From Chondrosia reniformis (lineage: Eukaryota; Porifera; Demospongiae; Chondrillida; Chondrillidae), in contig OX359202.1 of NCBI GenBank assembly GCA_947172415.1, positions 1,552,501-1,616,500 on the forward strand: 64,000 nucleotides of DNA, read 5' to 3'. Positions 6,801 through 63,838 of the stretch are shown here, in pieces (the stretch's first letter is position 1; each line of letters begins with the position of its first letter). The position numbers and the translations under genes were made by a program. Below the pieces are notes generated by a model, which was not told the origin of the DNA, searched no databases, and saw only the letters and a program-made list of their open reading frames with translations.

Positions 6801-9800
6801 CACTAATGGACATGTAGATTTTTAATGCTGTGGTGTGAGAAATTTGGGTTTATTTTATGTGCATATTTTAAAGCTATTACAGCAGATATGTGCAATGGTA
6901 CACAATGTGTGCAATCACTGGTGTTGAAAATATGTTTAAAATTTAATAATTTTCAATTTGGAGCTCCTCAGAGGATGCTGTAATATATTATGTATACGTA
7001 CGTATGTGTATTTATGTACATAATTAAGTGATGACTAGAAATACGTAGGTAGCAAATGGTATGTTCATTTCCCAGTTAAATTCAATTTGATTTCTCTCTC
7101 TGTATGACTTATAATGATGACATCAGTTGTGGTCTTATTGGTGTACAAGTTTCCCTTTTTGTAAAGTGTTATGAAACATTTGAAACTGTATTTGAAATGA
7201 TCACATGCATAAAGTTTTTAGTTTTAATTTTGTGCACTGTATATACGTAAATCAAGTACCAAATAGAGATGTACGTATTATGGCTACTGGTTTTAGAATA
7301 TTGACTTATGTAAACTGTAACTCAATCAACTCATTAAAGTAAGCTAACAACAGTATCTTGCTAATAGGCCCCACCTCCCTAAAATGACTTAATAATTGAT
7401 TGATAAACATCTGATCTCTATGGACTGTAGGAGCAGGATTCAGTTTACTCTTCCTAGCTAGAGGAGCTTAATTAACAGTTGTTTATTTTGATAAGTGATG
7501 TGATTGCATTATATGGCCATTGCACAGTGTCAAGGGTCCCAAAGTTTTAATCAGAATCATTGTACTGTTAACTTACCATCATAAGCAGATATATGTAGGT
7601 TTTGCGTTCAAATGCTAATGCATACATTTTGATTGTACGTATTCCCTATCATGTACGTATGTTGGTTGCGTCTGATTAAAGTGTTAGCATTTGTAGTTTT
7701 GGCTGTTCCTGTTTTGACTTGAGAGAAAGTTGTCCACTTTTAGTGTTTCAAGTTTTGTGGGTTTCTTCAATGTAATGATGCCTGCATACATACCACAGTA
7801 TAAAGATACTTAGATGGCTAAAAATTGAAATACAATTAAAAGTCAGGTGTACAGTATTAAAAATATGTGTGGTGCATGTGGCAATGTTCGTGTGTATGTG
7901 CACACCTCTTTTAAGGAGCTTCTAATGGATTGGTTTACCAATTAGTCCAAAGATATGTCTGTTGATTTGTAGTACACATAATACTGACAATACGTACGTA
8001 CGTATGTGTGTATGTACAATCTTTAAAGGAGTCCAGTAGAAAATTGATCATTATATTATATTCCTATAGTGGAAATTTTCATTGGTACAAATAGTTGTAG
8101 AAATTTTGTCTGGTAAATTAGTTTAGCTCAGGAATTTAGAACTACGTAACTTTGAAAAAGATTCCCTATAAGGAGATTTGTCAGGTTTTAATTTTCTATA
8201 ACTCACTGAAGATTTTTTATTTTGTGAATGTTTATGCCAAACTCTTCCAACACAATGACTCAATATTGTCCACATACGTACGTATGCTTTGTTTTCCATT
8301 TCCTCGTTTATTGCTGATGAAGACTTCTGGGTCGAAATGTTAAATTGCTGAACAATTGTGTAGTTGAGACTCATTTTAAACTAATACTACTATATATAAG
8401 TACGTATGCATAAAGTGATAGGAAGTACTTGTTATGATCATGATGATTAGAAAACTACAGCTATAACATCTCTTGTATGTATGTACGTGAGTACTTATGT
8501 ATGTCTTTTACGTAGATGGTACATCTTTCGAATCTTTGAGCGTCTAAAAATGCAGTTTGGCTTGATAAATCTTTTGGTCAAACGTTTCGACCCTGGGGGT
8601 CTTCATCAGTAAGGAAGCTCAAAGATTTGAAAGATGTACCATCTAAAAGATGAGTTTAATGCAGTTAGAAGAAATCCTTATTCTACTTGTGTTTGTACAG
8701 TATGGGTTTATAATACAATTATTACTATTTGTTATCTAACACAGTTGTTGTCTGGAATGTTCTGCCAAAGACTTGTTTCTTTCAAAAGAAGTGTATACAG
8801 TATGTGTTGCAAATGTAATACACAAACCAATCATATTACAGTGGTAATACTTTCAAAAGGTGTCATTCTACTCAAGTATTTCAAAAATGTGTTTTCATAT
8901 ATATTAAAGATATAACCACTCATTAACTTGAGGTATACGTATACACACAGTCAGTATACGTACATACATATGTGTGTATATGTGACATTCTAAATATAGT
9001 GACACTGTTATGCAAGAAATATTATATTTTAAATATTTACTTGGAGTGGGGAGATATATACGTATGTGATCATACTTCAGACTTTTGAAATTAGACCTTT
9101 TATGGTCAGATTATCCATGAAAGAGCTGAATCATGTCAACAATGTTCTTCCTCACAAACTGTAAATAGTCACATTTCCTCTGTTAATTTTTTGTTGTTCA
9201 TTTCCTTTTATTTAATCTCACATCCTGTCTAAAGGCTTTTAGAATTGCCATAAACAGCCTTAAAGTGCATTTAGCAGGATTGAATGTTATCTGTCCAACT
9301 ATTCCCCTTAAAGACAGGATATTATAATGGTGTTGTATGTAATTATTTGGATTCTGTTTTTAGTTTGCTGACCTAAATGATAAGAATGAGGTTCATAAAT
9401 ATTGAGGTCTGTGTCTTTGGAGAATGGGCCAATGGGCTTCATAGTTAACAATAATAGCAACAATAGCTGTAACATATGTGTACATATCTCTGCCTATATT
9501 AGGAATCTTTTTACAGAAGAGAGAGATAACATCTGACGTGTAGAGACCATTTTTGGTTTAATTTGACCTACAGTGCTTGGTGTAGACATTTAGAGAATGT
9601 ATATTTTGTATTGTGAATGCTTAATCAAAACTACAAATGCTATGTGATTTAATCCTTTTTTCCTATAAATGTACTAGGAATTCTTTTACTCTTCAATAGT
9701 GATAAACTACTTACGAATGTATATATGTATAGTGAAACTTGATTAGAACGTACCTTGGTTAATGCATATACCTGATTGCAATGTACGTACGTACATATTC

Positions 9801-62300: not shown

Positions 62301-63838
62301 ACGTACGTAGGTTGTGCTGGTGAGTGCCACTCTACCAACGGAGGTACTCGAGATGACCTCTAAGTTCATGACTGACCCAATTAGGATTCTTGTAAAGCGG
62401 TGAGTATCCAGTGTTGTATGAATTGCAATATTTGCCAACCACATTGTTTGAGCTGATGTATGCTTTAATATACCCAGTGATGAATTGACTCTGGAAGGAA
62501 TTAAGCAGTTTTTTGTGGCAGTTGAAAAAGAAGAATGGAAGTTTGATACACTCTGTGATCTCTATGACACTCTGACCATAACACAGGCAGTCATATTCTG
62601 TAATACTAAGAGAAAGGTACCCTCAGTATTACATATGTGCATATGTATAGTATCATTCAGCAATCCATTCTTTATTTGTGCCCATTCAATGAGCACATTA
62701 AAGGTTCACCATTTTCCTACGTACATGCTATGCCTACTCTGTATAAAAGCCTATAGGGAAATAAACCTGGAGAGAGCTTTGCATACTTTACATACGTACA
62801 TGTCCTACTGAACTAAGCTTCTTAGTAGAGCAGAGGAAAACCCTTTCAGATGTGCCTTCATAAACCTTACATACGTACATATGTATTTGATACTACGTAT
62901 ATAAGTGTATGTATGTATGTAAGTGTTGAGACTGTACACCACTCAATTGTATTCAGTTATTATCATCCTGGCCTTCCCAGTGTAACTTAGATGATTAGCT
63001 GTATAGCCAGACCCTTTTCCCTAATGGCTTCCTAAACAGAAGAGGGAAAACGGTCTGGAGGATAATGCTACTTCTTCTGTTACTGATGTCCCTCCACCAC
63101 AGGGACGCTGGTGAATAGTTTTTAAGTCCCCAGAAAAGCCTTTGCACAATTTTAATTAACCAAAAGTTGTGTAGAATAGTAAATATAGGCTCCAAATAGA
63201 TAGAACAGCTCCGGGCCTACTTCCAGGTTCCTCGTTTTCTTCTTCTTTTCTTTCTTTTATTTCATGTTAATGTACAAACTAACCTATAAATATACAGTTC
63301 CTAGATGCACATGTCTAATAATTGTATAGCGGCTTAGGCATAGGAAGCCTTAGGTTTGAACACACTCTACATGAAGCAAGTTAGTTTTGTAGGTGCCAAA
63401 ATCAGGGCCTTCTCGGATGTCATTGTTTAAGTACGAGCATTTCAGTTGTCTGTTCTTTCTTTCTTTAACTAAGAGACATTATTTTTTTGTCAAGAAAATA
63501 GTAAAAACAAATTTTAATAAGAAATATTTACAAGAAAAAGGAGGATACAAGTTAATTAAAACATTCAAAAATGAATTTGGTTAGCCTTAAGACATGACCC
63601 CTGTCTTGTTCAATACCCTTCTAGATGTGCTAGTCACTGTTGCAGATTTCTTTGATGACATAATTGAATACATCATTTCATTCAAAATGTCTACCATTAT
63701 GCACTTGTAATGCATTGTACAGGTGGAGTGGCTTACGGAGAAAATGAGGGAAGCCAACTTTACTGTGTCTGCCATGCATGGGGACATGGATCAGAAGGAG
63801 AGAGATACAATTATGAAGGAATTTAGAGCTGGAGATAG
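59322..63838 (+). CDS. EIF4A3: eIF4A3 (DDX48), exon-junction-complex DEAD-box helicase, 3' part outside window
   Basis: Exons: 59322-59481, 59543-59615, 59946-60075, 60315-60435, 62078-62223, 62311-62399, 62478-62616 and 63723-63838. They give 324 residues of about 411. The last exon ends with a GT donor at 63839, so exon 9 onward lies beyond the window. Motifs in order: Q motif [13 protein letters not shown], Walker A AQSGTGKT (79-86), PTRELA, GG, TPGR, DEAD (184-187) and SAT. The eIF4A3-type stretches [20 protein letters not shown] and [11 protein letters not shown] separate it from eIF4A1/2. Family knowledge: an RNA-clamping ATPase that nucleates the exon junction complex and acts in nonsense-mediated decay. 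The HRIGR and ARGLD motifs should follow to the right. The exon 6 acceptor is ACGTACGTAG, a TACGTA palindrome reused as a splice site. Confidence 0.96.
60460..60545 (+). repeat. Fragment related to the 8504-8650 MITE
   Basis: TTTAGATGCTCTAAAAGTCA and GATGCAGTTACGTAGAAGAA correspond to parts of the 8504-8665 region and of 41855-42030. Here TACGTA at 60526-60531 replaces the TA seen in the other copies (GCAGTTAGAAGAAA). Confidence 0.65.
60640..60848 (+). mobile_element. Dispersed repeat, family A (near full length)
   Basis: GAAAGATCAAAAACAACAAA ... GAAACAGCTGTCTGACCCAG ... CTGTATCCTCATCCAAAGCT ... ATGTACGCAGGAAAATGGTG. It carries TACGCA at 60818-60823 where the others read TA. It lies in eIF4A3 intron 4. 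Confidence 0.85.
61542..61740 (+). mobile_element. MITE with TACTGTAAT ends
   Basis: TACTGTAATTTGGGAAAT at the left is mirrored by ATTTCCCGAATTACAGTA at the right around a ~200-bp body rich in CCACGAAAA and AAAATTT motifs. A related body appears at 63875-64000, cut by the window end. Confidence 0.8.
62708..62792 (-). mobile_element. Dispersed repeat, family A (end fragment)
   Basis: CCATTTTCCTACGTACATGC and AAGCCTATAGGGAAATAAAC match the reverse complement of the family right end. TACGTA at 62718-62723 replaces TA. It lies in eIF4A3 intron 7. Confidence 0.75.

Follow-up and report, generated by a model that had tools for sequence, protein, structure and literature searches.

The window analysed here, a 64,000-nucleotide stretch of the Chondrosia reniformis assembly (C14:1552501-1616500), is nuclear animal DNA in which copies of dispersed repeats carry the word TACGTA at places where their relatives carry TA. 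Comparison of such copies shows that TACGTA is the derived state and arose by an insertion specific to TA; the core of the insertion is mostly constant, and it occurs at several TAs and in several repeats. One primary assembly was the sole source of genome data (117,379,552 bases in 15 contigs, contig 15 having 17,451 bases), and the published description of the genome gives 117.37 Mb, 14 chromosomes and a 17.45-kb mitochondrial genome, with PacBio HiFi reads (PMC12181767). One wider sample took 10 kb from each of 18 places on five other chromosomes (180 kb). Two satellite loci, L011 and L018, were excluded from the inverted-repeat, following-base, second-order-model and TAYR-run counts and from the word-enrichment counts of the TATGTA/TACATA type, and L001, L020, L021 and L022 (window overlap or mitochondrial) from the TAYR-adjacency count and later analyses of fetched sequence.

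The initial annotation had listed eight sites in the window at which one repeat copy carries TACGTA, or a product of it, opposite TA in its relatives. The letters are as it gave them at every coordinate, and seven of the eight comparisons hold, with TACGTA or a one-base derivative facing TA. The sites, together with the copy of family A, a dispersed repeat, that contains one of them, are as follows.

8509-8514, forward strand: TACGTA in the left arm of an inverted-repeat element of about 130 bp, whose own right arm has TA (arm comparison).
11220-11229, forward strand: TACGTACGTA; comparison of TA with insert not supported (window relative with a 13-base gap).
13944-14141, forward strand: copy of family A, a dispersed repeat of about 200 bp (similarity search and pattern match).
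14098-14103, forward strand: TACGTA at AAAGTA^GATG of a family A copy (AAAGTAGATG against AAACTACGTAGATG, with one extra substitution).
31150-31155, forward strand: TACGTA against TA in a two-copy repeat, 94% identical (31130-31264 and 45317-45447; GGTAGC against GGTACGTAGC, one relative).
35484-35489, reverse strand: TACGTA at GGTTTA^GTT of a family A copy (GGTTTAGTT against GGTTTACGTAGTT; 28 of 42 overlapping relatives show a clean gap).
60526-60531, forward strand: TACGTA against TA at GTTA^GAAG (GTTAGAAG against GTTACGTAGAAG, two relatives).
60818-60823, forward strand: TACGCA at ATGTA^GG of a family A copy, the same TA as at 62718.
62718-62723, reverse strand: TACGTA at ATGTA^GG of a family A copy (ATGTAGGAAA against ATGTACGTAGGAAA; 6 of 12 overlapping relatives show a clean gap).

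The site at 8509 is counted as supported because the element's own inverted right arm (TCTTTTAGATGG, against TCTTTTACGTAGATGG on the left) shows the TA state; the arms of a copy of this element at 41.9 kb carry TTTTGGATGG or TTTTGGATGC. The site at 11220 was ruled out, as its window relative has the 13-base gap and no TA there. At 14098 the gap falls cleanly at the exact place in only 3 of 56 relatives, because the comparison needs the extra substitution, and the TACGCA at 60818 is a probable one-base derivative of TACGTA. These eight sites are a small part of the whole TACGTA picture.

Family A offers the largest set of copies for comparison: a similarity search returned 3642 first-look candidates, 40 of which were scored, and one subfamily-rich pattern had 1779 matches, the first 100 of which were listed. 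Its consensus and most of its copies have TA at the insert sites. An alignment of 53 copies, of which 52 are distinct because L049 sits within L003 (3.2 kb and one family A copy are thus counted twice in the fetched-sequence analyses; the genome-wide pattern and word counts are untouched), contains eight four-base insertions. Six of these stand at AAAGTA^GATG, four as TACGTA (one being the query's own copy) and two as TATGTA; the other two are one TACGCA and one tandem duplication. Because the query itself bore the insert this site is over-sampled in the alignment, and a genome-wide pattern count, being independent of the query copy, is the better test. For AAAGTA^GATG the pattern CTAAAGTA-N{2,16}-GATGTAGCATG matches 27 copies in which 2-16 bases are inserted; in 19 of these the insert has exactly four bases: CGTA in 10, TGTA and TATA in two each, and CATA, CGTG, TGGA, GCTA and CTTA in one each. 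The other eight inserts are TA (three times) and, once each, CAGTA, CGTACGTA, AGTACGTA, CGTACGTATGTA and a 10-base insert. At GGTTTA^GTT the pattern ACTAGG-N{6,20}-GTTCCCTATAGG has 12 matches (TTTACGTA twice, TATACGTA, TTTACGTACGTA, TTTATATA and TTTACTGTA once each, and six others, at least two of which are duplications); the inserts read CGTA in two, CGTA with one substitution in one, and CGTACGTA, CTGTA and TATA in one each, with six of other kinds, so that 4 of 12 are of CGTA type. A control pattern across a TA-free 16-bp stretch of family A gave 22 matches, seven of them with four additional bases; none of the 22 has CGTA or a decay form of it. One sequence-specific four-base insertion leads the insertions at the two TAs tested genome-wide.

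A second look at the GGTTTA site, taking copies in which the next base is not G, gave 100 matches of which 42 were readable: six carry a TACGTA-class insert (three with CG, three decayed), 30 have the G substituted, four of these resembling one duplicated segment, and six are of other kinds. From six inserts against 30 substitutions, TACGTA-class insertion at this TA is about one fifth as frequent as substitution of the neighbouring base. In the young CCCC subfamily CGTA inserts are fewer: among 24 rows with at least two inserted bases there are one TATACGTA, one TATGTA, one TACAGTA and two TATATA, and 19 are of other kinds, many of them duplications. The rows of this subfamily, of the GGTTTA pattern count and of the second look overlap in part, as the same copies recur in them.

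Comparison of all repeats does not single out CGTA in the same way. An all-against-all comparison of 337 kb yielded 13 clearly derived insertions, 10 of them of 4 bp: three of the ACGT class, three of the ATGC class, three of the ATAT class (two in near-identical copies) and one AACT. Among 106 unpolarised non-tandem 4-bp gaps, many of which the satellite locus L011 supplies, AAAT and ATAT account for 13 each, AGAT for 10 and ACGT for nine. In this smaller comparison CGTA ties with two other 4-bp classes. The proposal that CGTA insertions are commoner than other 4-bp indels is borne out at AAAGTA^GATG (10 of 19) and is less clear in the derived set (3/3/3) and the unpolarised gaps (9 of 106). 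There may be a second insertion type, CA to CATGCA or TG to TGCATG (L008:9018, L016:2627 and L037:1716; 3 of the 13 derived insertions), two of the three cases resting on two relatives. Locus L011 (C3:3000001-3010000) is itself a dense satellite with near-palindromic units such as CTAGTTGTATGTA and has 106 TATGTA in 10 kb.

Shared inserts could also reflect a single event, if TACGTA were ancestral and the TA copies were deletions, or if one insert-carrying subfamily had spread. Of 29 further copies that the insert-bearing query brought in, five do have the insert at the same TA, and over all 43 long copies, other subfamilies included, insert-bearing copies have a mean distance of 0.103 among themselves and 0.132 to the rest, with L041 and L039 nearest to insert-bearing copies. 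Against this, TA is the state of the consensus and of most copies, the five copies do not cluster among those fetched by the same query (permutation p 0.41, a test of low power), and four of the six insert-bearing family A copies have an insert-free nearest neighbour. The same change occurs at three family A TAs and in three repeats outside family A (the 31130/45317 pair, the 8509/41864/60474 family and one in L040), and it is on this ground that we argue for recurrence. A consensus containing TACGTA, with TA derived, had been named by the initial annotation as one outcome that would refute the proposed insertion process; the family A consensus has TA, and we regard a single origin as the least probable of the explanations weighed here.

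The word is abundant both in the window and genome-wide. The window contains 175 TACGTA where a first-order (dinucleotide) model over the 64 kb expects about nine, a 19-fold excess, and base composition alone would give about 22 (calculated by hand). CpG in the window is depleted to 0.38 of expectation, and 22.1% of its CpGs lie in TACGTA. One dense part is this.

4981-13728: stretch with 64 TACGTA in 8.7 kb, about seven per kb, and many TAYR tetranucleotide tracts (word count).

The 18 samples hold 126 TACGTA in their 180 kb (summed by hand), and window and samples together show an 8.6-fold excess over the first-order model, with 9.0% of CpGs in the word. Over a second-order model the excess is 5.3-fold in all fetched sequence apart from the window and the two satellite loci. 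Genome-wide, TACGTA occurs 115,557 times against 71,100 for ATGCAT, which has equal base composition but no CpG, and the density of the window is about 2.8 times the genome mean. The second-order expectation, scaled genome-wide by hand, is about 24,000, which puts the excess near 90,000; part of it lies in tandem arrays, such as the one at C1:172014-172699, which contains TACGTA at a 34-base period.

Such an excess might arise if TACGTA were simply a CpG motif protected from decay, or a selected binding site, for example one with a bZIP-type ACGT core. In the window the ratio CG/(CG+TG+CA) is 0.38 within TACGTA and at most 0.21 in every other NNCGNN context, as protection would have it, and the literature that we found on TACGTA as an over-represented word deals mainly with plant regulatory motifs. 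Protection, however, is unable to raise a word above the expectation from base composition (about 22, against 175 seen), nor can it turn TA into TACGTA by insertion, and we consider this explanation very improbable.

A further explanation is the birth and growth of a tetranucleotide microsatellite, (ACGT)n, with TACGTA mostly a slippage product of TAYR tracts and subject to CpG decay. Of the 175 TACGTA words in the window 107 adjoin another TAYR unit, as do 129 of the 276 elsewhere, so about half in all. T stands third in the sequence following TACGTA in 71%, and 330 of 1,630 TAYR runs, with TATA counted as a unit, have 2-11 units placed head to tail in register. TACGTACGTA occurs 27 times in the window, and TATGTA and TACATA are enriched 1.8- to 1.9-fold. 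Loci of (ACGT)n, (ACAT)n and (TGTA)n are reported among the markers of Aplysina gerardogreeni, another sponge of the subclass Verongimorpha (PMC10771372), and a cnidarian table gives low values for ACGT (PMC4226868). What slippage leaves unexplained is the first step, which at the examined sites takes place at lone TAs without a 4-bp template (AAAGTAGATG, GGTTTAGTT, GTTAGAAG), so that copying of adjacent units does not describe it, as the initial annotation had also argued; furthermore, no TAYR unit adjoins 68 of the window's 175 TACGTA or 147 of the 276 counted elsewhere. We therefore think it unlikely that TACGTA is mostly a slippage product. Taken together, the following-base, run-length, decay-form and TAYR-adjacency counts fit a word that is born at a lone TA, grows by slippage or re-insertion and undergoes CpG decay. 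Slippage would then extend some TACGTA sites to (TACG)n, as in TACGTACGTA, and CpG decay would change TACG to TATG and TACA, giving TAYR tracts; later growth by repeats, likewise proposed in the initial annotation, is seen in the inserts of the pattern counts at family A TAs.

The explanation for the first step that we favour, with a probability of roughly 45%, is that TACGTA at the TAs of repeat copies is the excision scar of TA-targeting elements of Tc1/mariner/pogo type with C..G ends. A cut-and-paste DNA element whose terminal inverted repeats start with C and finish with G would insert at TA and duplicate it; when it was excised one base would be left per end, or a self-complementary CG overhang would anneal, and end joining would seal TA-CG-TA. 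Excision of Tc1/mariner elements is described as leaving two copies of the TA target-site duplication around a few bases of the element ends (PMC3408717, PMC2874221), in vivo 5' cuts of mariner are placed 2-3 nucleotides inside the element (PMC2642840), and a pogo-family element is reported to leave 0-4 bp (PMC9976928). The insertions found here behave like such a footprint: they stand at TA, the remnant has a TA to its left and another to its right, and the empty TA is the ancestral state by consensus and by most copies, the clustering test being weak. The core bases of the insert are C..G, with C-A-G and C-T-G as minor forms; TATA, TACAGTA, TACTGTA and TATATA occur as minor forms at the same TAs, and TACAGTA and TACTGTA are as expected of CAG..CTG element ends. 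Excision as the cause, the position of cleavage and transposases of the Tc1/mariner/pogo type as the agents are what we infer from these observations.

Transposases of the superfamily are represented by DDE_1 (pogo/Tigger-type) matches, of which 150 were scored among 319 candidates genome-wide, all above the cut-off, and many are without stops, with open frames of 400-600 codons; DDE_1 is also found in host genes. A cluster of these matches, with several open frames near 404 codons, lies at C3:2.7-4.2 Mb. TA-flanked inverted-repeat elements with C..G ends, which the initial annotation had suggested seeking, do exist, including some with CAGTGGAA-type ends, and a TA-flanked element of 172 bp at L013:1020-1195, starting TACAGTAGAATCTC.. 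and with CAGTAGAATCTCATTATA ends, apparently interrupts another repeat; we take this element and the CAGTGGAA ends to be pogo/Tigger-like. Small TA-flanked inverted-repeat elements with related ends of TCTTTGAGATGG type were also noted in the window (8513-8645 and 41855-42003) and in L009, L032 and L050. Picked by eye from 140 inverted-repeat rows, candidate TA-C..G-TA elements number about six in 317 kb, which extrapolates to about 2,200 per genome; none in the sample is tied to a scar. Donors starting with TACG were considered and set aside, TACGGT contexts showing no abundant family and one 129-bp element in L042 beginning CGGTA, and a search for split family A copies gave one doubtful case. 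A TAG target preference, hinted at by the window sites, was rejected, since the base following TACGTA is mostly C or T, and a target-flank preference of Tc1/mariner type could not be told apart from the TAYR tracts.

Several observations weigh against excision scars. The excess of TACGTA (about 90,000) outnumbers the candidate elements (about 2,200) by roughly 40 to 1, no abundant family starting with TACG appears in the sampled sequence, and the GGTTTA site is occupied in none of the 42 readable rows of 100, elements starting with G falling outside that pattern. A general footprint rule, by which all TA-N-N'-TA words would be enriched, fails: the self-complementary words TAATTA and TAGCTA reach 1.45-1.55, the same as the palindromic controls ATGCAT (1.48) and GCATGC (1.51). 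The 3-base forms are enriched only about 1.5-fold outside the window and 0.9- to 1.15-fold within it, and a review gives the Sleeping Beauty footprint as TAG(T/A)CTA, rather than with C..G outer bases (PMC2874221). Because no occupied site was found, membership of the footprint class is not established, and the transposon proposal of the initial annotation stands as the best fit among the causes it named, with no donor at these sites.

The same gaps lend some weight to a TA-specific break and end joining without a mobile element, in which a domesticated or abortive transposase, or another nuclease, would cut TA with a two-base stagger and fill-in would duplicate the TA; one C would be added per 3' end, or self-pairing CG overhangs would be favoured, before joining gave TA-CG-TA. 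The absence of occupied sites among the 42 rows, the few donor elements in the sample, the mostly constant C..G core and the high rate at the one measured TA (within one set of rows, six TACGTA-class inserts and 30 substitutions of the G) are all in keeping with it. We are aware of no enzyme described as adding a single C to each end in such a setting, though we made no dedicated literature search; the CAG/CTG variants, moreover, are those expected of element ends, and the genome has open-frame matches to TA-targeting transposases. It is possible, if doubtful, that a host-encoded process of this kind, cutting TA and joining the ends with a CG core, has given one animal genome its approximately 90,000 excess TACGTA, working at the measured TA with about a fifth of the neighbouring-base substitution rate, and that with slippage and CpG decay it seeds TAYR tracts, possibly across verongimorph sponges. 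The probability beyond excision and this process we leave to repeat-tract dynamics and to causes outside those considered.

The initial interpretation is partly supported, its remark that no described process has this signature being too strong, as two TAs around a short remnant are a known Tc1/mariner footprint (PMC2874221, PMC3408717). Within the literature searched, two features appear to be new: the scale, and CG as the leading core. Should the marks be transposon scars, they would tally past excisions at a scale that we did not find described in that literature; otherwise they would constitute a new mutational signature, and the enzyme behind it could be sought. In both cases the rate of change from TA to TACGTA could be measured with HiFi reads that already exist and with the genomes of other sponges.

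The window also contains short-period tandem arrays, among them 71 copies of a 23-bp unit, CTGTGTCCTATACACATGTATGA, at 28892-30523 (95% matches). Others, with 92-97% matches, lie at 5424-5613 (18 bp), 20552-20720 (26 bp), 21225-21421 (32 bp), 22619-22887 (17 bp), 24729-25142 (25 bp) and 49635-49756 (17 bp).

Among known systems, the pogo/Tigger/Fot1-type elements, with a TA target and CAG..CTG ends, share with the present case the presence of such-looking elements and the 150 scored DDE_1 matches, and one end base per side would yield TACGTA; here the elements are candidate sources of the scars. A Fot1 scar is known to keep one base on each side. The verongimorph (ACGT)n and (ACAT)n microsatellites, with their markers in Aplysina gerardogreeni, have the same repeat unit and the same decay series, and leave the first insertion at a lone TA unexplained. 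The TA-bounded internal eliminated sequences of Paramecium resemble these insertions in their TA-bounded excision, which is linked to Tc1/mariner ancestry, and differ in that a single TA is left, without CG. The Tc1/mariner footprints of Sleeping Beauty, ZB and Mos1 are like the present insertions in having two TAs around a short end remnant, with published sizes of 0-4 bp; in C. reniformis, unlike in these systems, no donor is seen at the scars, the remnant that leads is CG, where the review has TAG(T/A)CTA for Sleeping Beauty (PMC2874221), and the word occurs some 115,000 times.

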